A DNA stretch of 64,000 nucleotides from Paenibacillus timonensis (GTDB lineage Bacteria; Bacillota; Bacilli; Paenibacillales; Paenibacillaceae): contig NZ_WNZY01000003.1 of the NCBI RefSeq assembly GCF_009725205.1, forward strand, positions 186,001 to 250,000. Reading direction: 5' to 3'. This document shows, piece by piece, positions 2,100-27,536 of this stretch. Each line of letters starts with the position of its first letter. Position 1 is the stretch's first letter. Below the pieces are notes generated by a model. The model saw only the letters and a list, made by a program, of their open reading frames with translations. It made no database searches and had not been told where the DNA came from. A program made the position numbers and the translations under genes.

Positions 2100-2170
2100 A
2101 ATTATCCGCCCAAAATAAAAAACGGCCGCATCCCGGTATACACCGAGAGGGACCGCCTTTCATTCGTATC
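2100..2170 (-). terminator. Ancestral spo0A terminator
   Basis: On the minus strand a hairpin (TCCC...CGGT GTAT ACCG GGA) is followed by GCGGCCG and a T-rich tract (GTTTTTTATTTT). It lies about 80 bases downstream of the displaced spo0A 3' end, so it is probably the original spo0A terminator, now separated from the gene by the insertion. Confidence 0.5.
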
Positions 2171-2246: not shown

Positions 2247-2480
2247 TCACGACACTTTATGCTCGATCCGAAGCTTATCCGCCACCATGGCAATAAATTC
2301 GCTGTTCGTGGGCTTCGACTTGGCGATGTTGATCGTGTAACCGAACAGATGGCTGATGGAGTCGATGTTGCCGCGCGTCCAGGCGACTTCAATCGCGTGG
2401 CGAATGGCACGCTCGACGCGGGAAGGCGTCGTTTTGAACTTTTCGGCGATGGAGGGGTAGAGCGATTTCGTAATGGCTAT
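2247..2480 (-). pseudogene. spo0A: Displaced original 3' end of spo0A
   Basis: The reverse strand encodes about 77 residues that align without gaps to the last 77 residues of the intact Spo0A at 26548-27351 ([30 protein letters not shown]... to the shared end [10 protein letters not shown]). There are only three or so amino-acid changes, but many synonymous base differences (about four-fifths nucleotide identity by eye). Homology stops at about 2480. An in-frame TTG at 2519 would give a 90-residue product beginning with 13 unrelated residues, but it has no convincing ribosome site. This is interpreted as the host 3' end left behind by integration (2247 to the core at 2362-2387), joined to element-borne spo0A-like DNA (2388-2480). 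Confidence 0.9.
2362..2387. repeat. attL core (26 bp, within displaced spo0A 3' end)
   Basis: This 26-bp stretch (starting TCGATGTTGCCGCGCG) is identical to 26663-26688 and is the longest exact match between the two spo0A copies. It encodes Spo0A residues VAWTRGNID, an extremely conserved part of the DNA-binding domain. Differences resume immediately on both sides, as expected for a strand-exchange core. Confidence 0.8.
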
Positions 2481-2494
2481 TGAGCTGTCAAAAG

Positions 2495-2533: not shown

Positions 2534-2809
2534 TCGCTGGGATTATTTATAGCTTAAATCCCCTTACTCAAACCATACTTCACGACGAAGAGAGTGTCAA
2601 CCCGATAAATATCTAAGGTCTAAATTGTAAATGAAAAAAGCCAACATCTCTAGTGACTTATCATCACCTGTATAGACCAATGTACAAACAGGAACACAAA
2701 TCCATACTGGCATCTCCTAAGACAGTCGCTACACAGGCTTCTAAAAATGATGTATCTATAGATTTGATGTCACCCGAGCAATGCCCTGTCATTTATACAA
2801 TATAGTGAT
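2534..2809. other. Element left-end noncoding region
   Basis: About 275 bases without a credible gene between the left arm and the DUF6602-like gene. The segment is AT-rich. It contains a GATTATTTATAGC motif (from 2541) resembling GGATATTTATAGC near the right end (around 26488), possibly a further recombination accessory site. I see no clear terminator for the minus-strand cassette. Confidence 0.5.
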
Positions 2810-4105
2810 TCATCTTATCTTTCTCCGTTCTTCTGTATACTTCTTAATCCATCTTTCAAATCTTCCAGTCTTATTCTCCCCAGCAACAAACCTTCCATCA
2901 GGAAGTATTGCAGTTAAAAGTTCGTCCGTCAACAACTCTAGATTACCTTTACTATCTACATATAATATTCCCATTTTATTAAGCCTTGTTATAAACCCAT
3001 CTATTGAGTGCCCATACTTTTCCAAGAAATCTATAAAATCTTGATCATTAAGTGATATATTCACCCCATTGCACAATTCGCTAACAATAATATGTTCTGG
3101 AAGTTCTAATACCCATGGTTCCCAGGACACTGTTTCATCTGAAGTCATTAGTTCATGTTCTGGCAACTCAATATACTTATATTCCCACCCCTTTGAGCTT
3201 CCTGCCGTCGATACCTTACATTTTAGGAACGGATTAAAAACTTCAGTCTCTAGGTCCTCCCCAAAAATCGATGAGGGTAATTCATATTTATATGCTAATC
3301 TAGTCCATATCAGTTCTAGCATCAGTAATATTGGATTTCCGCTTCTCGACCCATATATATCAAGAAACCCGTCTTCAAATAGTTCTCCAGGGTAAGGCAT
3401 CCCATTGAACTTGATTAATGAACTATTCCTGCAAATCAATAAATTCGGAAATCTAGTAGGACCAAACCCCTTTATTGGATTATTAATATCTTGTGATATA
3501 TTTTCAGATAAATACTTAATAAAAGCCCCTCTCAGTTTATACTCTGATGAATATCCGTAATAACCAAATACTATCCTTATGGGTAGTAGTGCTTCTACAA
3601 TTAATGTATGATAAACATACTGTTCATCGACAGATAGTTCTTCAAGTTTTTCATGATCAGGTAATTCCCTCTTGCACACTCCTCTAAAAGCATCCCTAAC
3701 CATACTCAAGCTAACATCAGTAGGTACTGTGACATCAATTACACTTTTTAAATTCTGGTAGGAATCATTTATCTCCTGAGCATATAAATTCTTTTTCACT
3801 TCTACAATTGCAATAACTTGAACAGTATTATATAAGTAATGATCAGTGTAGGGAATACGTTCACCTGCTCCCTCAACAATCATACAATCAATTTGATCAC
3901 TCATTTGATTGTCATCATTGACGATCTTACCCGTAACAACTCTTATATCTAATCCCTTAAAAATAGCTCTTTCTAATATATTCCTTGTTAGACCTTCAAA
4001 CATATCGCCTATCATAGGTCCGTGCTTCAGCATATCATACTTTTTGAGTAGTTCGGTCTCCTTATTTTTTAATTGCAGTAACAAGTCCGCTAGAGTAGTT
4101 ATCAA
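2810..4105 (-). CDS. DUF6602-like putative PD-(D/E)XK nuclease
   Basis: A 431-residue protein. Its first 110 residues match the DUF6602 pattern: a helix with GDMFEGLTR (Glu37), then SDQIDCMIVE (Asp73) and AIVEVKKNL (Glu102-x-Lys104). This is the acidic/acidic/lysine arrangement of PD-(D/E)XK nucleases. The remaining 300 residues are unassigned and lack membrane segments. The start is a TTG at 4105, 9 bases after AAAGGAG. It is the fourth gene of the SIR2-HerA cassette, 194 bases after the dual-nuclease gene. Role inferred: an effector or accessory nuclease of a defence system. Family confidence is moderate and function is unproven. Confidence 0.7.
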   Translation of the reverse strand: MITTLADLLLQLKNKETELLKKYDMLKHGPMIGDMFEGLTRNILERAIFKGLDIRVVTGKIVNDDNQMSDQIDCMIVEGAGERIPYTDHYLYNTVQVIAIVEVKKNLYAQEINDSYQNLKSVIDVTVPTDVSLSMVRDAFRGVCKRELPDHEKLEELSVDEQYVYHTLIVEALLPIRIVFGYYGYSSEYKLRGAFIKYLSENISQDINNPIKGFGPTRFPNLLICRNSSLIKFNGMPYPGELFEDGFLDIYGSRSGNPILLMLELIWTRLAYKYELPSSIFGEDLETEVFNPFLKCKVSTAGSSKGWEYKYIELPEHELMTSDETVSWEPWVLELPEHIIVSELCNGVNISLNDQDFIDFLEKYGHSIDGFITRLNKMGILYVDSKGNLELLTDELLTAILPDGRFVAGENKTGRFERWIKKYTEERRKIR

Positions 4106-4193
4106 GGAATTTAGCTCCTTTTATTAATCTAGAATCTAATATGTTCAAAAATAAAATAATTGCTGTAGAGCTAATTGATATGAAAATAGAAAC

Positions 4194-4361
4194 CTACTCC
4201 CATGCGCGTTTTCGAAATTCGTTATTTTTGATTTCTTGAATTCCTCTCAATAGAGTTCTCAAATATGGATGTGAGTATTTTAGTTTCTCAATAACTGGCC
4301 TATAAGCCCAATCTAAAGTCTTCAATCTTTTGCTTAATAACCTCTTCAGGATTATTTCCAT
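4194..4361 (-). CDS. Possible frameshifted tail or tiny overlapping gene
   Basis: A 55-residue open frame begins inside the 3' end of the dual-nuclease gene in another frame and runs 106 bases beyond its stop. The product is basic and helical (YRPVIEKLKYSHPYL...). Its ribosome site is weak. It may be the true C-terminus of the upstream protein after a programmed or accidental frameshift, or a separate coupled gene. It fills most of the otherwise empty 194-base gap before the next gene. Confidence 0.3.
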   Translation of the reverse strand: MEIILKRLLSKRLKTLDWAYRPVIEKLKYSHPYLRTLLRGIQEIKNNEFRKRAWE

Positions 4362-5250
4362 TCTTCTTAAGCAACAGCATTTGCTCGTAGTCTGAATCAT
4401 CTATAAATATAATTAGCTTGGATTGTGCCATCCACACTTCTCGTTGCGTATGTACAGCTGATTCTTTTGGCCCTTTTCTGGATGAGATAATCCCAAACAT
4501 ACCTGGACCATAAGCTTTTAGATAATTGATCATTTGCAGCACACAATCTTTGGTTACTTTTGCAGAGTAATTCTTGGGATCAACCACTATGAAATCGGCT
4601 CCATATCTATTAGCCATGAATTTCCAAAACCCTGACTCACAATAATTTGCCATGATTATATCTCTTCTGTTTGCCTTTGCAGTGTCAGAAAGTTCTACAA
4701 TTGGCCTCCCTAAGTCTGGACAAAAAAGGTGTTCAAATATGGACGTACAAATCTTTTGATATGAACTCCAATTAGCTCTGCCAGGAATACATGACTTCAA
4801 ACTCTGCATCAACCTATCTTCAATGGTAGCTTCCAAATGTACAGACATAAGTACGTCTCTAAGCTCATAGGACTCAATAGTCTTTAATTGTTGTGAAAAT
4901 AATGCAGCTATTTTATTCAAATCCCAAACCTCAAGCCATTTAAGATCGCTAATTCTGTCCATCTGTAAGGCTGTTAACTCTCCTGGAAATGCCAACACTC
5001 TCTTCTTAGGAGTAGAATTTTGATAAATCAGTAATTGCTTTATCACATCATCAAGTCGACGATCAGAAAAAGTTGAGGCGGCTTTGCATTCAATCAGCAA
5101 GGTTTCCCCGTTTAAGTCTGCTTTTATGTCAGCATGCTCAGCATTAACCTCATGCTGGACATTGCTGAAACTCCCATGATTCCTTATCATTCTAAGTAGC
5201 TCATATTCAAATATAAATCCTTTAACGTGGGAACTCTCGTGAGTGCGCAT
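4300..5250 (-). CDS. Dual PD-(D/E)XK-like nuclease, SIR2-HerA cassette
   Basis: A 316-residue protein with two nuclease-like regions. Residues 8-75 show Glu15, then HADIKADLNG (Asp41) and LLIECKA (Glu54-x-Lys56), a standard PD-(D/E)XK core. Around residues 190-260, RRDIIMANY is followed by FIVVDPKNYS, which resembles a Mrr-type variant core with Asp replacing the second acidic residue. The ATG has AGGGGGGAGCGAG upstream. It lies 73 bases downstream of the HerA-like gene on the same strand. Role inferred: DNA or RNA cleavage by, or regulation of, the HerA/SIR2 complex. No specific family name is certain. The C-terminus may be altered (see 4194-4361). Confidence 0.65.
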   Translation of the reverse strand: MRTHESSHVKGFIFEYELLRMIRNHGSFSNVQHEVNAEHADIKADLNGETLLIECKAASTFSDRRLDDVIKQLLIYQNSTPKKRVLAFPGELTALQMDRISDLKWLEVWDLNKIAALFSQQLKTIESYELRDVLMSVHLEATIEDRLMQSLKSCIPGRANWSSYQKICTSIFEHLFCPDLGRPIVELSDTAKANRRDIIMANYCESGFWKFMANRYGADFIVVDPKNYSAKVTKDCVLQMINYLKAYGPGMFGIISSRKGPKESAVHTQREVWMAQSKLIIFIDDSDYEQMLLLKKNGNNPEEVIKQKIEDFRLGL

Positions 5251-5323
5251 TATTATCTCGCTCCCCCCTGATGCTCTTACTCAAAATGCTTTGTCGTGTT
5301 CTATAACTAAGCAAGATATAGAA

Positions 5324-7435
5324 CTATTGTCTCCAATCATCAGCAATAGTTGACCAATTAAGCTTCCGTTCCTCAAGTCCCACCCATACGTTCCAATAAT
5401 CAGGATCAGAAGACTCTGGTCTTTTTTCCAATGGCAACTCCTTCATCTTAACAAGTACTGGTATTGGGGAAGCCCATCCCATTATAATCGCCTCACCAGC
5501 AGGTAAGCTTGGAAGCTCGGAAAGTAAACCTCCGAGATTATCAGGCACAAGTTTACTGACAAGTTCCTGATCTCTGTCGTTGACTATTCGATGCAAGAGA
5601 AAAGTATTGCACTGGGATAAAACTGTTGGGGACAGCTCTGAAGGTCTTTGAGAAGAAAGAACAAGCCCTAGACCAAATTTACGACCTTCTCTGGCGATCT
5701 TCTCAAATATCTTTCTGCACTCAATACTTGCTGAAGATGACTGATCGTCTGCAATTTCCCGTTTTATAAATGTATGGGCTTCTTCAAGCACAAGAACTGT
5801 TGGAAGTTCTTTTCCCTCGTTAAGCTTTTTATATCTTTGTACTGCTTCAAACACAATTCTTGAAATGACTGCTGCAATTACATGGAGCAAGTCCGAAGGT
5901 ACTAGTGATAAGTCAATAACTGCTACTGGACCGTTTTGAGCTTGATCTTTACCAATATAGGACTCTAACCACTCTTCAAAAGTTAGATCATTCTCAGGCG
6001 CAACAACTTGATTAAAGCGCCTATCGCCAAGCATGGTCCTGATCCTCATTATTAGATACTGAATATTAGTTGCAGCGCCGCCCCCTGCTTCCGCAGCCAA
6101 GGCCTCTAAATACTCAGGAAAATCTCCAATGTTAAATGAAACAGGTGAATCTGCATCAACTCCACTATCTGGGATCGACGCTTCAGTTTGAACTACAGAT
6201 AGAAAGCTTGAAATTTCTTGATAAATATGGGTTAACACTGGTTCACTAAAATCATTAAAATACTCTTTCCTTTTATGATTGTCAATGACTTCCCTACATT
6301 TCCCCTTCAAGCTGTTTAGCCCTGTTTCCCATGTACTCGAGACCCCTAATGTACTCACCATAAGAAAGTAATGTTCACTTTCTTTAAAAATATTCTCAAG
6401 CAGAAGACCACAATTCTGCCTAGCGGGGAATCCTGAATAGCCAGCTGGTCCTTGTCCGATAATTGACCCAAGCTGCAAGAATCTTCCCTTGAAGACTCGA
6501 ATCAACCTTCTTTCAATTGGATCACTTATTGACAGTCCTTCACGAATGCCCTTTAACGCTTGTGAAAGGATAGGTCTTTGCACCTGTGAAGATGCTCGTG
6601 AAAATGCTCCCCATTCATGGCTATTCCATAACCAAGCAGGAACCTTTAATTGTTCAGAAATCACATCTGGTTGAACTTTAAATACACGAGAACCGATATC
6701 AGAGAATGTATTTGAATACTCACCATTAGGATCAAGAATGATAAAACGCGCATTGATGCCTTCACTTTGCTGATCCGTCCCACTAACAGGTAGGATTCCC
6801 AATTCCATTGACTCTTTTCTATCCTTCTTTGCTTCTTCCAAAGACCAACGTATAATTCCTGCGACAGAACAAGATTTTCCACTGCCTGTGTTCCCAAGGA
6901 TAGCTAAATGTCTGCCAAATATCTTATCTGGATCAATACTAACCAGAGCGTTCTCAGCTAAAGGAGCCTTTCCAATTACAACACGTTTGTTGTTACCGCT
7001 TGCCTCTACTATTGATCTTAGTTGCCTTATTGTAGGGATACAAACCTTATCGCCAACAGATGGAAATATTGAGATGCCGCGACGAAGTTCATAGGATTCA
7101 ATATTTTCATTTGATCTACAAAGAGTTCCAAGAGGCACTACTGAAAGCTTTCTAGTCGGAAATGGCAAGTCAATCAAGCCGAAGTCCTTTAATCCTGTTC
7201 TTTTTGGGTACAAGGAGCGCTCTATTCCAATCCATGAAATCAATCCAACTACCGCACCTTGCTCATTTGGTATTAAAATATAGCCGTTTATTCTAGGGAA
7301 CCCCCTTGGGATTCCTGCATTCATAGCAGTAGATTGTGGTGCGTCCGCATCCAAAATAACCTTAAACTCTCGAGGCGAGACTGATTCGACTGTGCCTACG
7401 ACTAGTGACGATAACCCTTCTATTGGAGTGGTCAT
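5324..7435 (-). CDS. herA: HerA-like hexameric ATPase/helicase of SIR2-HerA system
   Basis: A 703-residue ATPase. The N-terminal 120 residues form a beta-rich region like the HAS-barrel. Walker A is GNTGSGKS (181-188), Walker B is TVLVLEEAH (about 546-554), and a sensor region GLVLSSQRPSELS follows near 590. These are hallmarks of the HerA/FtsK-type motor family, which forms hexameric rings on DNA. The start overlaps the SIR2 gene stop by ATGA, so translation is coupled. SIR2-HerA pairs are known antiphage systems in which HerA stimulates NAD+ depletion and, in some, nuclease activity. The assignment as a defence motor is strong; the exact mechanism here is inferred. Confidence 0.9.
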   Translation of the reverse strand: MTTPIEGLSSLVVGTVESVSPREFKVILDADAPQSTAMNAGIPRGFPRINGYILIPNEQGAVVGLISWIGIERSLYPKRTGLKDFGLIDLPFPTRKLSVVPLGTLCRSNENIESYELRRGISIFPSVGDKVCIPTIRQLRSIVEASGNNKRVVIGKAPLAENALVSIDPDKIFGRHLAILGNTGSGKSCSVAGIIRWSLEEAKKDRKESMELGILPVSGTDQQSEGINARFIILDPNGEYSNTFSDIGSRVFKVQPDVISEQLKVPAWLWNSHEWGAFSRASSQVQRPILSQALKGIREGLSISDPIERRLIRVFKGRFLQLGSIIGQGPAGYSGFPARQNCGLLLENIFKESEHYFLMVSTLGVSSTWETGLNSLKGKCREVIDNHKRKEYFNDFSEPVLTHIYQEISSFLSVVQTEASIPDSGVDADSPVSFNIGDFPEYLEALAAEAGGGAATNIQYLIMRIRTMLGDRRFNQVVAPENDLTFEEWLESYIGKDQAQNGPVAVIDLSLVPSDLLHVIAAVISRIVFEAVQRYKKLNEGKELPTVLVLEEAHTFIKREIADDQSSSASIECRKIFEKIAREGRKFGLGLVLSSQRPSELSPTVLSQCNTFLLHRIVNDRDQELVSKLVPDNLGGLLSELPSLPAGEAIIMGWASPIPVLVKMKELPLEKRPESSDPDYWNVWVGLEERKLNWSTIADDWRQ

Positions 7436-8733
7436 ACAGTTGACTCCCTTTCATCTACTTTCAAATTATTCTGTTCTGGGGGTTGCTGGGGTTGTGCTCT
7501 TTTTGCAATTAATTCTGATTTTCTTATAGTAATCGTATCTATTGCAGATTTGGGCAGATAATGCTTTACCAAGTTACTGATATCTCCAAAATGGTTCCCA
7601 ATCAACAAAGATATTTGAGCATCTCGTCCGACTCTTTCAACAAACTTAGGAATTCTGCCTCCTGCGGTATCAAATGAGATAATAACTAAGTGGGTAGATG
7701 GAATAGTGAGCATATCTGCGATAACTCGATTAATATGATCATCACCAAACCCATACCCATATGTAACAATTGCTGAATTGGGACGACACAGAGCAGCTGA
7801 GAAGTCCCTGAATAACTCAGCATAGGGATATTGAAGGGTTTCAACGTCTTTAGCTGGGTTTGGATATATCATTACTTTGTTAACAGGATCGTCAACATTA
7901 TAAAAGTACTTGGAGGGAGCCCCAAAAGGTACAGGCCATTTTCTAAGCACTTTATCAGCATAGTGCCAATCGAGCGAACCGTGTAGTTTGGCCAATTTCA
8001 CAACGCCTTCAAGATATCGAGGTTCCCCTCTTATACCTGGTGGATTATAGTGCATGTCTATGTCAATTCGCGAAGAGCGAAATATCGGTGTAAGTGTTCC
8101 TACAAAACGGTCTATGACTCGTAAACCAATTAAATCGCATGCATACTCAATTAGCCTGTCGTAGTTTGTTGTAAAGATGTTCAAGCGTTCTCTTGTCGCA
8201 GTTCTACTTGCAAAACTCATCAAAAATGAGATTAGCACACTTTGAGCTATTTCCCCGTCAGGTGAGCCTTCTTTTATTTTTTCGTCAATACCTTGTTCTG
8301 TTTCTAATAAGCTTGTAATAAAGTCATTTAGTATCCTTGATAACGCTTGCTTCCAATTAGGCAATTCAGGGTCCTGAATTATTGCTAGCCCTTCCATTAA
8401 TGCTAATGCAGCTCGGATTTGATCTTCAATGTTTGCTGACCCTCGCCCACAGGCAGTAGCCGACTTTTCTGCATAAGCATTTAACTGCTCTTCGTACTTA
8501 CAACCGAACGAATCGATTCTCCCCATACCAGTCGCAGAAGATTTAGTTAAATAACCAATTGAAGAAGTAAATCCGCTCCCCAGTAACAATGAGAGATGTT
8601 CGCTTTGAAATAATGCAGATAACCAAGGCTCAATTTGGGAGCGAGCCTCTTTTATCTCTTCTTTCGACAAACTCTGTCCGAATTCCATGTACTCTGAACC
8701 AGTGCGGTATATATTAGATGCCCAATCAGCCAT
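7432..8733 (-). CDS. SIR2-like NADase, defence effector
   Basis: A 433-residue SIR2-domain protein. It shows the glycine-rich NAD pocket LLLGSGFTSSIG (49-60), FTTNYD (187-192, with the catalytic-type Asn190), KLHGSLDW (249-256, with His251) and GYGFGDDHINR (326-336). These match bacterial SIR2 NADases that kill infected cells by consuming NAD+, not the zinc-binding sirtuin deacetylases. I chose ATG 8733, which follows AGGGGGAATCAAT; the frame is open for 36 further codons upstream without a good start. It is the first gene of the cassette, with its 3' end overlapping the HerA-like gene by 4 bases. Confidence 0.9.
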   Translation of the reverse strand: MADWASNIYRTGSEYMEFGQSLSKEEIKEARSQIEPWLSALFQSEHLSLLLGSGFTSSIGYLTKSSATGMGRIDSFGCKYEEQLNAYAEKSATACGRGSANIEDQIRAALALMEGLAIIQDPELPNWKQALSRILNDFITSLLETEQGIDEKIKEGSPDGEIAQSVLISFLMSFASRTATRERLNIFTTNYDRLIEYACDLIGLRVIDRFVGTLTPIFRSSRIDIDMHYNPPGIRGEPRYLEGVVKLAKLHGSLDWHYADKVLRKWPVPFGAPSKYFYNVDDPVNKVMIYPNPAKDVETLQYPYAELFRDFSAALCRPNSAIVTYGYGFGDDHINRVIADMLTIPSTHLVIISFDTAGGRIPKFVERVGRDAQISLLIGNHFGDISNLVKHYLPKSAIDTITIRKSELIAKRAQPQQPPEQNNLKVDERESTV

Positions 8734-8968
8734 ATTGATTCCCCCTATATTATTAGGTCCATCAAACACTAGATAAGTTAGTATCACATTTCGACTAATC
8801 GCGACTATTCTCCTGCTTTTTGGAAAAAGAAAAAGCCTCATAGAGGCTAGAAGTCCTATAAGAGCTATATCATTTCTTATTAAAGATACTAGCTATGTGA
8901 TTAGATATGTGAGATATCCCCGCGCCACCTGAATGTCCTTGTAGGAAACATTCATCATCTCGGCTTGC

Positions 8969-22803: not shown

Positions 22804-22890
22804 GAAACGGATAAGTGTCGATATATAACTACCCGTCAAGACTGAGATGAATCGCTATCGCTCAGTCTTGACTGGCTTTATCCGTTAATC
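22804..22890. repeat. Nested palindromes downstream of the primase gene
   Basis: Outer arms AACGGATAA and TTATCCGTT enclose an 11-bp perfect hairpin TCAAGACTGAG/CTCAGTCTTGA with a CGATAG-type inner loop. It lies between the convergent primase and DUF4238 genes. It could be a bidirectional terminator or part of a replication origin next to the primase gene. Confidence 0.55.
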
Positions 22891-23911
22891 ATTGATACTC
22901 TTTTTCCAATTCCATTTGACGCATATGCCAGGTTTCCCACTCCCTTTTCTCGTCTTCAAACGCAACTTTGTCTACGATACGAGGAGCGATCTTTCTGATT
23001 TCATCAGAAGGATTGAAAGCAAAAATGTGACGATGCGCATTTTCGGCAATAAAACGATTTAAAGTTGTCGCTAGCTCTATGGAGCAAGCATTCATTCTAG
23101 TATCATTACCAACCTGAGTATATAATAATAACTCGGGAGATAAAGGAAAAATGATTTCGCTCCCCTCATTTCCCCACCCGCCTTTAAAATCGTACGATCC
23201 CGCTTCGTAGTAATTTAACTTCACTACAGGATTGTCGCTTGTGATCCACTCCATCCCTTCAGGAGCTTGGATTATACTCCATGTGTGCGTATTCAGTACC
23301 CTATAGGTGTTGAACAGAACGTGGCGAATAGAGAACAGCCAAAGTCCCCGCCCCAATAGCACTTCAGTTTTCAACTGCCCCCACTCCGAATCAGTGCTGA
23401 TTTCCTTAGTTACTTTCATAGGAATCATTTTGGAATCAGGATTCGACTCATTAGCTGGAATGTGACCTTGATCCTTTCCAGCTTCCAATATGCTAATAGC
23501 GGACTGCATCACTTCTTCCATGATATTCGGCATCTCCAACTTCCAACGCTTCATATGCTCTATGTAATTAGCTGGAGAGCGTATATCGTGAAGTGCAACA
23601 AATCTAAGCAAGGACTCCCACTCTTGTTCGTTTAAAGGCTCATTAGAACGTGCTTTTAATAAGGCTTTTTGTGCAGGGGATTCAATTTCCTGATCCATCC
23701 ACACTTCAACCTCATCGGACTCGTCTCCTACTATGGTTCGGGTAAACAGATGCTGATGATTGGCTATACTCCTTATTGACGATTGTGACCACTCTGGAAC
23801 TGCATTATGGGAGACTAACGTACGGTATGTCCAAACTCTATGATGATTATTTGCCCATGCTTTTAAGTATGATTGGGATACGTAATGATGATTCTTTCTA
23901 AGGTTTTTCAC
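22889..23911 (-). CDS. DUF4238 family protein
   Basis: A 340-residue protein with the DUF4238 signature NHHYVSQSYLKAW at the N-terminus, then an all-helical middle, and ITSDNPVVKLN in the C-terminal half. DUF4238 proteins are widespread on mobile elements; their biochemical role is unknown to me, though the conserved His/Asp residues suggest an enzyme. I prefer GTG 23911, 7 bases after GGGGGGAG, over ATG 23938. It stands alone on the minus strand, convergent with the primase gene, and is a typical cargo-type gene. Confidence 0.75.
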   Translation of the reverse strand: MKNLRKNHHYVSQSYLKAWANNHHRVWTYRTLVSHNAVPEWSQSSIRSIANHQHLFTRTIVGDESDEVEVWMDQEIESPAQKALLKARSNEPLNEQEWESLLRFVALHDIRSPANYIEHMKRWKLEMPNIMEEVMQSAISILEAGKDQGHIPANESNPDSKMIPMKVTKEISTDSEWGQLKTEVLLGRGLWLFSIRHVLFNTYRVLNTHTWSIIQAPEGMEWITSDNPVVKLNYYEAGSYDFKGGWGNEGSEIIFPLSPELLLYTQVGNDTRMNACSIELATTLNRFIAENAHRHIFAFNPSDEIRKIAPRIVDKVAFEDEKREWETWHMRQMELEKEYQ

Positions 23912-24143
23912 CGATAACTCCCCCCATTCAGAAGCCATAATTGTTCGGAAGATTTAGTCCTGTACTAGTACTAAGTCCCCTCTATTCCTGTAGATGTAAT
24001 TATAGCATGATTTCCAAATTCGCTACGGTGATCCAGCTCGTATTACTATAGATACAGTATCAATCACCAAATTCATTTCCGCATTCAGCATCCATTGTTT
24101 TCATATTCTGTGCGGGATACAATCGGTTCAAGAGGTGAAAACA

Positions 24144-25406: not shown

Positions 25407-26384
25407 TCAAATCCCATCCATGTGCGCGATAGGACTATGCTTCTGATACTTACGAGCGATTTCATCATTCGTGAAATCCAGATAAGCTTTCTGAGTTACT
25501 TCAACCGAGCTATGCCCTAGAATGCGGCACAAGCTAAACCAGTCCCCGTTATTCAAGATATAGTACTTAGCAAAGTTATTCCTCAGTTGATGAGGATGAA
25601 TGGATACCCCTACCCGTTCTCCCGCTTCGCGCAATGCTCGTTCATAATTGCGTACTTCAAGCTGCGTTCCTCTGGTCGTCGGAAACAAGAATGGGCTTTC
25701 CGAATACCTATCCTTGTACTTCATCCATTGCTTCATGTCATTAGCCAGCTTGAACGAGAAGTACACATATCGCTCCTGCTTATTCTTCGGGTTCGTGATT
25801 AAGATGCTCTTATGGGTATAGTCAAAATGCTCAGGGAATAAGGACAGGCATTCTCCAATTCGCATTCCCGTATCCAACAATAGCTTGGTAATGATGTAGT
25901 TCCTGTAGCCGTGGAAGGTTGATGAATCGAACTGCTTTAATACTCGCTTGATTTCATCAGGTGTCAATATCTTCTTCAACTTCCGTTCAGGCTTAGGGTT
26001 GTCGATACTGTCCACGGGGTTCTTTGGAATTTCCCGCTCGGCGTGGTACAGATAATTGAAAAAGACTTTGATGTTCCGAACGTAGTTGGCTATGGTTGTC
26101 GTCGATATGTCCTTTTTATAATCGCTTCGGTTATCGGGATGATTAATGTTCTTGCTCTCTTCCTTGTTGACGACCGTGTACTTGCCCCGCTCCCGCAGAT
26201 ACTTAATGTATTGCCGAATATGCCCCGATTGCACTTTCTTCACATCTTCGATATCAAAGCTCTGCTTCAAGAACAACGTAAACAACTTAAGGGTTTGTTC
26301 ATAGGATGCCAAAGTCTTGCGGGAAAGATTCTTCGAACTGCAATAAAGCATAAAATTGTCGATGTGAAATTCCATGTCTGTCAT
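25407..26384 (-). CDS. int: Tyrosine recombinase (element integrase)
   Basis: A 325-residue XerD-like integrase. The N-terminal SAM-like core-binding domain spans residues 4-120; the catalytic domain carries Arg175 (DTGMRIGE), Lys200, His265-x2-Arg268 (HPHQLRNNF), His291 (LGHSS) and Tyr301 (KAYLDF), so all catalytic residues are present. I chose ATG 26384, 11 bases after AAAGGAG. The gene starts about 33 bases from the inner right arm and about 280 bases from the attR core, a normal place for an integrase. It probably catalyses insertion at, and excision from, the spo0A core. Confidence 0.93.
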   Translation of the reverse strand: MTDMEFHIDNFMLYCSSKNLSRKTLASYEQTLKLFTLFLKQSFDIEDVKKVQSGHIRQYIKYLRERGKYTVVNKEESKNINHPDNRSDYKKDISTTTIANYVRNIKVFFNYLYHAEREIPKNPVDSIDNPKPERKLKKILTPDEIKRVLKQFDSSTFHGYRNYIITKLLLDTGMRIGECLSLFPEHFDYTHKSILITNPKNKQERYVYFSFKLANDMKQWMKYKDRYSESPFLFPTTRGTQLEVRNYERALREAGERVGVSIHPHQLRNNFAKYYILNNGDWFSLCRILGHSSVEVTQKAYLDFTNDEIARKYQKHSPIAHMDGI

Positions 26385-26416
26385 AAGAAATACCACTCCT
26401 TTATGGGGTTGTTGGG

Positions 26417-26459
26417 AACCCAATAAACAAGTGGTATTTGTTGGCTTACTCATTCGATA
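26417..26459. repeat. Right inverted arm of the element
   Basis: Exact inverted copies of the two left-arm motifs: AACCCAATAAACA (26417-26429) and TACTCATTCGATA (26447-26459). They overlap the integrase promoter region, so binding by integrase or excisionase could also regulate int. Confidence 0.75.
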
Positions 26460-26547
26460 TTTATCGGCTCAAACCGTCCGCTTTCGGATATTTATAGCCA
26501 AAACTGCAATAGCCCTTGACACGCTCAAAGCCTTACGGCTCTTGCCT

Positions 26548-27351
26548 TCACGAAACCTTATGCTCAATCCGCAGCTTGTCCGCGACCATCGCGATAAACT
26601 CGCTGTTAGTCGGCTTGGATTTGGAGATATTGATCGTATATCCAAATAGATGGCTGATCGAATCGATGTTGCCGCGCGTCCAGGCGACCTCGATCGCATG
26701 GCGAATTGCGCGCTCCACGCGTGAAGGCGTCGTTTTGAATTTTTCTGCGATTGCCGGATACAGCGTCTTTGTGATTGCGCCTAAGATCTCGATGTTATTG
26801 TATACCATCGTAATGGCTTCACGTAGATATTGGTACCCTTTAATATGCGCAGGAACTCCGATTTCATGTATGATCGAAGTGATGTTCGCATCGAGGTTTT
26901 TGCCCTTGCCTAAAGGTACCACATTCGATTTGGTGTAAGAAGTCGATGGTGTATTCGTCGTTAAGGTTTGAACGCCGACAAGCTGACGGATACGATTCGC
27001 TAGGACTTCCATGTCAAAAGGTTTCAAGATGTAGTAAGAAGCGCCAAGCTGAACAGCACGTTGCGTGATGTTCTCTTGACCAAAAGCGGTCAGCATGATG
27101 ATTTTAGGTTGCGGTGTCAAGTTGAGATCGCGAATGCGCTCAAGTACGCCGAGTCCGTCTAGATGAGGCATAATGATGTCCAGGATCAACACGTCCGGAA
27201 CTCTTGCTGCATTATCGATCATCTCCAGCACTTCTTCCCCATTATAGGCGATTCCCGAGACGACCATATCGTCTTGCTCCGAAATGTATTCCGCGAGCAA
27301 ATTCGTAAATTCTCGATTATCATCCGCCAACAACACTTCGATTTTCTGCAC
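26548..27351 (-). CDS. spo0A: Spo0A, master sporulation response regulator (3' end supplied by element)
   Basis: A 267-residue response regulator that, when phosphorylated by the phosphorelay, switches on sporulation and stationary-phase genes. The receiver domain has the acidic pocket LLADDNREF, phospho-acceptor Asp58 (VLILDIIMP) and the conserved Lys in ILKPFD. The C-terminal DNA-binding domain contains [19 protein letters not shown] and ends [10 protein letters not shown]. The length matches B. subtilis Spo0A. The last 38 or so codons (below 26663) come from the integrated element by my model and differ from the displaced host copy mainly at silent sites, so the protein is restored. An upstream sigma-H promoter and Spo0A boxes are visible. 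Confidence 0.97.
26663..26688. repeat. attR core (26 bp, inside intact spo0A)
   Basis: Identical to 2362-2387. Sequence on the high-coordinate side is host spo0A; sequence from 26548 to 26662 is the element-supplied replacement 3' end. Confidence 0.8.
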
Positions 27352-27414: not shown

Positions 27415-27443
27415 GGATTCGACACGCAAAAGTAAATTCCTTC
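27415..27443 (-). promoter_or_regulatory. Sigma-H promoter of spo0A
   Basis: On the minus strand GAAGGAATT and GTCGAATCC are 11 bases apart, matching the sigma-H consensus (RnAGGAwww, 11-12 spacer, RnnGAATww). It lies 64 bases upstream of the start codon, corresponding to the Ps promoter of B. subtilis spo0A. Confidence 0.75.
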
Positions 27444-27536
27444 TGTCGAAAATTATTTTTATTTATTTTTTTGCAGGCTTGAGATATAATAAAATATTTA
27501 TTTACACAAAGCGATTTCGTTCGGATTCATTCGACA
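27418..27536. promoter_or_regulatory. Three Spo0A boxes in the spo0A promoter region
   Basis: TGTCGAA occurs at 27418-27424 (minus), 27444-27450 (plus) and 27530-27536 (minus, as TTTGTCGAATG). These match the 0A-box core, so autoregulation by phosphorylated Spo0A is expected. Confidence 0.75.

Follow-up and report, generated by a model that had tools for sequence, protein, structure and literature searches.

Is the integrase gene int, which lies directly behind spo0A in Paenibacillus timonensis, expressed by read-through from spo0A? Because spo0A is the master switch of sporulation, int under its control would tie the mobility of a genetic element to the development of its host. We analysed a stretch of 64,000 nucleotides around this locus, hereafter called the window. 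The initial annotation of the window proposed that the native spo0A terminator had stayed near position 2100, that no strong hairpin with a T-run lies between the spo0A stop and the int start, and that read-through could therefore drive int. Our results suggest that read-through is probably gated rather than free, by a conserved hairpin that hides the Shine-Dalgarno (SD) sequence of int. The locus has the following parts.

2112 to 2155, minus strand: displaced native spo0A terminator, a hairpin plus TTTTTTATTTT (score 26.2; near-identical in sister genome G051)
2247 to 2486, minus strand: native 3′ end of spo0A, displaced to the opposite island end (encodes Spo0A residues 192-267)
25407 to 26384, minus strand: tyrosine integrase int, 325 aa (PF00589, 2.2e-30; PHROG integrase)
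26385 to 26547, minus strand: gap between the spo0A stop codon and the int start, i.e., the int 5′ leader
26548 to 27351, minus strand: spo0A, intact ORF of 267 aa (Pfam Response_reg and Spo0A_C)

An island of approximately 24 kb is inserted in the 3′ part of spo0A. The spo0A 3′ end on the integrase side would be supplied by the island, and the ORF retains both Pfam domains in full. The island is thus not a gene-interrupting element of the regulated-integrity kind, whose target is broken until excision. The spo0A stop (26548) and int start (26384) are where the initial annotation placed them; the two genes are co-directional, and 163 bp separate the stop codon from the int ATG. Residues 139-303 of the int product form a Phage_integrase catalytic domain, which identifies it as a tyrosine recombinase. 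The native terminator did indeed remain near 2100, and its score of 26.2, like the terminator scores below, is of the d'Aubenton-Carafa type. In G051, whose spo0A product is 99% identical to that of the window and in which the search of family genomes gave no match to int, the near-identical terminator is directly 3′ of an intact spo0A. The insertion has therefore displaced the host terminator. The comparison with G051 shows no clear identity step that would mark the exact crossover, and so we give the insertion point just as from about Spo0A residue 192. Remnants of spo0A in relatives begin at residues 187 to 251.

The remnant in the window also contains an open reading frame (2247-2519), roughly 50 bp behind an outward promoter-like site described below, that would encode a shortened C-terminal domain of Spo0A. 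A partial Spo0A effector domain might be made from it. The varying length of the remnant among relatives argues against a kept function for this frame.

The int leader contains a 26-nt inverted repeat with 6 nt between its arms, which spans 26385-26442 and includes these elements.

26388 to 26439, minus strand: conserved hairpin of 21 pairs (5′ arm about 26411-26439, 3′ arm about 26388-26404)
26396 to 26402, minus strand: int SD sequence AAAGGAG within the 3′ arm of the hairpin (predicted mean unpaired probability 0.13 in the spo0A-int transcript)
26385 to 26390, minus strand: interrupted T-run TTTCTT, from the hairpin to the ATG

As RNA, the hairpin folds with −25.6 kcal/mol (z −5.7), and none of 200 shuffles is as stable. 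Its stem stops 3 bases short of the int ATG. Its terminator score is −9.1; of 60 shuffled gaps, one scores at least as high, and the shuffle maximum is −1.3. A simple scan of the gap for a hairpin plus T-run reported nothing, in our reading because 1×1 internal loops divide the stem, and the interrupted T-run overlaps it in part. The gap thus has no clean T-run, as had been claimed, but it does have a strong hairpin. The premise of an open path is wrong: between the two genes stands this hairpin, which is conserved at all 31 int loci examined and buries the int SD.

The conservation was established by a search for relatives of int at a threshold of E 1e-60 or better. They occur in 23 of 394 genomes of the family and 23 of 392 genomes of the order, of which 17 are common to both sets (29 genomes together). 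Eight loci from named records and one IMG/VR contig were added. Removal of nine duplicates, the distant integrases of the window's own genome and L029, in which the N-terminus of int is missing, left 31 distinct loci, whose sequences are related, so that the counts do not represent independent events. A Spo0A-coding 3′ end is directly upstream of int and co-directional with it at all 31. It belongs to a full-length spo0A at 25 loci and is a 3′ fragment alone at four (L014, L031, L033 and L048); L045 has a spo0A split over two frames, and the match in L025 can be traced to residue 250, where a run of Ns follows. The last matched Spo0A codon and int are separated by 153-189 nt including the stop codon (counted from residue 250 in L025).

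Each of the 31 loci has a hairpin. At 28 loci it is of the window's type, and none of 100 shuffles is as stable in 27 of these (1 of 100 in L021; z −3.1 to −8.5). The other three, L033, L046 and L047, have a nested variant in which an inner, terminator-like hairpin is found inside an outer stem near the SD (z −2.1 to −4.1 for a 71-nt piece). A covariance model built from the 28 loci also detects the hairpin in L029, which is outside the model set, with 44.8 bits. In the predicted fold of the spo0A-int transcript, the mean unpaired probability of the SD is 0.00-0.26 across all 31 loci.

Covariation supports the stem. In a plain, sequence-only MAFFT alignment of 26 distinct rows, evaluated with the 21-pair structure, 90.9% of cells are paired, versus 83.0% in shuffles. 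Changes on both sides affect 10 pairs and 38 cells, where shuffles give 5.3 and 10.3, and none of 500 shuffles is as high on any of five measures. When the structure is slid along the alignment as a control, 48-54% of cells are paired. With a shift of −3, double changes likewise affect 10 pairs, yet just 21 cells, and 49% of cells are paired.

The terminator score is above 0 at 24 of the 31 loci. The window and the three loci closest to it are among the seven with a score below 0. The window's subclade retains the hairpin and the SD burial but has a broken T-run.

Where, then, could int transcripts start? The following sites bear on this question.

2572 to 2600, minus strand: outward promoter-like site TTGACA-17-TATGGT at the left end of the island (10 of 12 matches)
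27418 to 27424, 27444 to 27450 and 27530 to 27536, minus strand: three 0A-box-like sites upstream of spo0A (0.2 expected by shuffle)

A promoter of the sigma-A type in the gap was considered and set aside. Scanned for promoters of the sigma-A type, the 31 gaps give no signal above chance (mean best score 5.47, versus 5.87 in shuffles, with 140 of 200 shuffle sets as high), and TTGACA occurs in none of them. Given no detectable int promoter in the gap, we infer that int mRNA of the integrated island most likely comes from transcription of spo0A. The three 0A-box-like sites suggest that this transcription could well increase at sporulation.

At the left end of the island, the window's site taken alone is not above chance, as its region has 9 promoter-like sites versus 8.0 in shuffles. 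The signal emerges over 19 left ends, which remain from 23 remnant entries after exclusion of one intact spo0A, one repeated left arm and two further L091 remnants. Their mean best outward score is 9.76, compared with 8.10 (sd 0.49) in shuffles, and none of 200 shuffle sets is as high. An exact TTGACA points outward at 11 of the 19 and inward at none (shuffle mean 1.7, maximum 5); the other eight have no exact TTGACA. In the integrated island, the window's site is directed toward the displaced spo0A end, and in the excised circle it would be directed across attP to int.

These observations can be joined in one mechanism, to which, as a whole explanation, we assign a probability of roughly 60%. 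The island would enter the 3′ part of spo0A and supply a new 3′ end that keeps the ORF intact. The native terminator has thereby been moved to the far end of the island, and int lies directly behind spo0A. The leader hairpin would gate read-through from spo0A. It has the look of an end signal for the rebuilt gene, one that is terminator-shaped in most relatives and weakened in the window's subclade by the broken T-run. Because the hairpin buries the SD, transcripts that pass it should still yield little integrase. Excision would bring the outward promoter of the left end in front of int, with attP between them. Against this scheme count the negative terminator score and broken T-run in the window's own subclade and the left ends that have no exact TTGACA. 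A hairpin that blocks read-through should also hinder the circle transcript, and for 13 of the 19 circle transcripts modelled, the window's among them (0.97), its predicted pairing probability exceeds 0.5. If int lacks its own promoter when integrated, the mobility of this family of islands in Paenibacillales would hang on spo0A transcription, filtered by one hairpin. The hairpin also illustrates how an island that takes the 3′ end of a gene can provide a new gene end and keep its integrase quiet.

The proposal of an unobstructed path, in which int is freely expressed by read-through from spo0A and excision increases at the onset of sporulation, shares several observations with the gated mechanism. 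The native terminator is displaced, the gap has no promoter signal above shuffles, 0A-box-like sites precede spo0A and, in the window's subclade, the T-run is broken. There is also a precedent for read-through from a host gene in ICEKp1, but stem-loops in the leader damp the read-through in that element (PMC13023037). Spo0A read-through as a source of int mRNA is thus plausible, as the initial annotation had it, but the path is not open: a strong, conserved hairpin stands in it and buries the SD. We regard free read-through as quite improbable, and with a gate in place a rise of excision at sporulation would not be the default expectation from the sequence. The hairpin could instead be a replacement terminator for spo0A only, kept for the benefit of the host, with the SD overlap a by-product of the closeness of int. 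Not only is it terminator-like at most int loci, but the hairpin model, at E 0.015 or better, also has matches at 9 of 28 spo0A loci that lack this int, as well as behind several spo0A remnants. Among 20 such hairpins examined, three are directly followed by remnants of int. For the other 17, the search for int covered 607 to 1206 nt beyond the hairpin; terminator scores are above 0 in 16 of them. The hairpin can therefore persist as an end signal of spo0A without int. Against a role in termination only, the hairpin and SD burial persist in the window's subclade where the T-run is broken. Moreover, the SD is in the paired arm at main-group loci and is lost in 11 of the 17 hairpins without int, in the sense of being weaker than any of the 28 int-bearing ones, as sought in slightly different windows. 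The SD thus tends to accompany int, and we consider termination alone an unlikely full account.

The gated mechanism must also be weighed against a promoter of int's own, in or beside the hairpin and of a type missed by a consensus scan. Transcripts that start in the loop would skip the 5′ arm and escape burial, which would otherwise leave integrase levels very low, and transcripts cut to start 34 nt before the ATG are mostly predicted to have a more open SD. The 31 gaps without sigma-A-like signal speak against it, as does the negligible promoter activity of the int 5′ flank of ICEKp1 (PMC13023037), and we doubt it about as strongly as free read-through. A further alternative takes the inverted repeat as a DNA feature, namely paired arm-binding sites of the integrase, with an incidental RNA fold. 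The core of the 5′ arm, TTTATTGGG, does occur again in opposite orientation (CCRATAAA), both at the left end and at other places within the gap. The ends of the island are themselves long, imperfect inverted repeats (2486-2540 and 26418-26473 in the window, 54 versus 55 nt, −50.9 kcal/mol as an RNA duplex), which differ from island to island yet are matched within many islands. By contrast, the int-sense strand folds better than its complement at 28 of 28 main-group loci, by a mean of 8.9 kcal/mol; among the nested loci, L047 is the opposite case, with the complement folding better (one of three). Outside the SD, G-U cells outnumber A-C cells 30 to 2, but a control slid by −1 gives 32 to 2. 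Composition can therefore explain part of the strand and G-U bias, which weakens the G-U asymmetry as proof of selection on RNA. Compensatory double changes outside the SD, e.g., GC to AU, are a stronger argument for RNA than the strand bias. We consider a purely DNA-level explanation highly improbable. Finally, because the ends are long, element-specific inverted repeats, the left arm of a circle transcript could capture the gap and the 5′ arm of the hairpin and free the SD, whereas a spo0A read-through transcript would lack the left arm and form the hairpin. The int leader would thereby sense whether the island is integrated or circular. Predicted pairing between left arm and gap averages −34.5 kcal/mol within an element versus −22.8 between elements, and in 12 of 20 elements the pairing with the element's own arm is the strongest (two share one left arm, and in G154 the two ends were taken from different contigs). 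Modelling predicts loss of the hairpin in 6 of 19 transcripts of the circle and in none of 19 from the integrated state. Some swapped arms likewise opened single hairpins, however, and the window's own hairpin is not opened in the circle model (0.97 to 0.97). The pairing has no preference for the sense strand (4 of 20), and the antisense strand pairs better on average; inverted DNA-binding sites may therefore be a simpler cause of the left-right pairing. We have accordingly set back a state-sensing switch as the main reading and think it decidedly unlikely.

We now note other properties of these islands and their relatives. The cargo at the window's left end (2810-8841) includes a predicted SIR2-HerA anti-phage defence pair (PADLOC, 1055 bits for HerA and 680 bits for SIR2), beside a DUF6602 protein and a PDC-M36A-like protein. 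A DUF4238 protein at 22889-23938 (Pfam 3.8e-30; PADLOC DUF4238-Pers 1.1e-10) is possibly further defence cargo. One contig of G190 has three int copies (L014, L031 and L033), each behind a spo0A 3′ fragment, some 30-55 kb from an intact spo0A, which looks like repeated tandem insertion. A second integrase lineage, 26-29% identical to int, occurs near spo0A ends in L014, L031, L037, L041, L048 and L113, and is on the opposite strand to int in the first five of these. Two integrase lineages may share spo0A as a hotspot. In L087, L090, L091, L104, L106 and others, spo0A ends are followed by hairpins like that of the int leader, with no int found directly behind them; the stem of these is often more perfect and the SD absent. 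They are possible scars of old insertions, retained as spo0A terminators.

Several known systems resemble parts of this arrangement. In IS10, the read-through transposase mRNA folds back, so that its 5′ arm hides the start signals, while the element's own internal promoter omits this arm. The hiding of start signals by the 5′ arm of a read-through transcript would be shared by the spo0A islands, but we found no internal promoter here. The skin element interrupts the sporulation gene sigK. The yin element interrupts yabG (PMC10747680), and the insertion described here is likewise site-specific and in a sporulation gene. In contrast to skin and yin, the island described here leaves the ORF intact throughout, and excision is therefore unneeded for gene function.

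The T1 terminator of Tn916 was shown experimentally to be an insulator that guards replication and conjugation genes (PMC11658703). Like T1, the hairpin is near an element end and would stop host read-through into element genes. In contrast to T1, it would guard int and overlaps the SD, and the window's copy lacks a proper T-run.

The closest parallel is ICEKp1. Experiments showed that the integrated element displaces the tRNA-asn terminator and that int, located 161 bp downstream, is transcribed from the host promoter (PMC13023037). Stem-loops in the leader reduce full-length transcripts, and a promoter at the element's end takes over after excision. The same study describes state-dependent switching of int promoters for ICEKp1, ICEclc and ICEEc1, and its discussion raises the possibility that, in the circle, a leader stem-loop pairs with a 15-bp sequence from the end (PMC13023037). 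The spo0A island shares with ICEKp1 an int that immediately follows the host target gene in the same orientation (163 bp away here), a host terminator displaced to the far end and a stem-loop in the int leader. A further likeness is a promoter at the opposite end that circularization would place before int; here we infer it from the sequence of 19 left ends. For the leader stem-loop, we observe structure and covariation, and attenuation is predicted. ICEKp1 differs in its host group and its target, a tRNA gene rather than a protein gene. We therefore rejected classification of the island as a conjugative element in a tRNA gene; a Pfam scan of the 18 larger island ORFs found no conjugation family, unlike ICEKp1. 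We also found no paper in the open-access literature on spo0A as an attachment site or on SD burial in an int mRNA. Compared with the leader stem-loops described for ICEKp1, the island has a single long, covarying hairpin that contains the SD, recognized in this case from sequence alone. What is new here is therefore spo0A as the target, together with one covarying hairpin that joins SD burial with the shape of a terminator.
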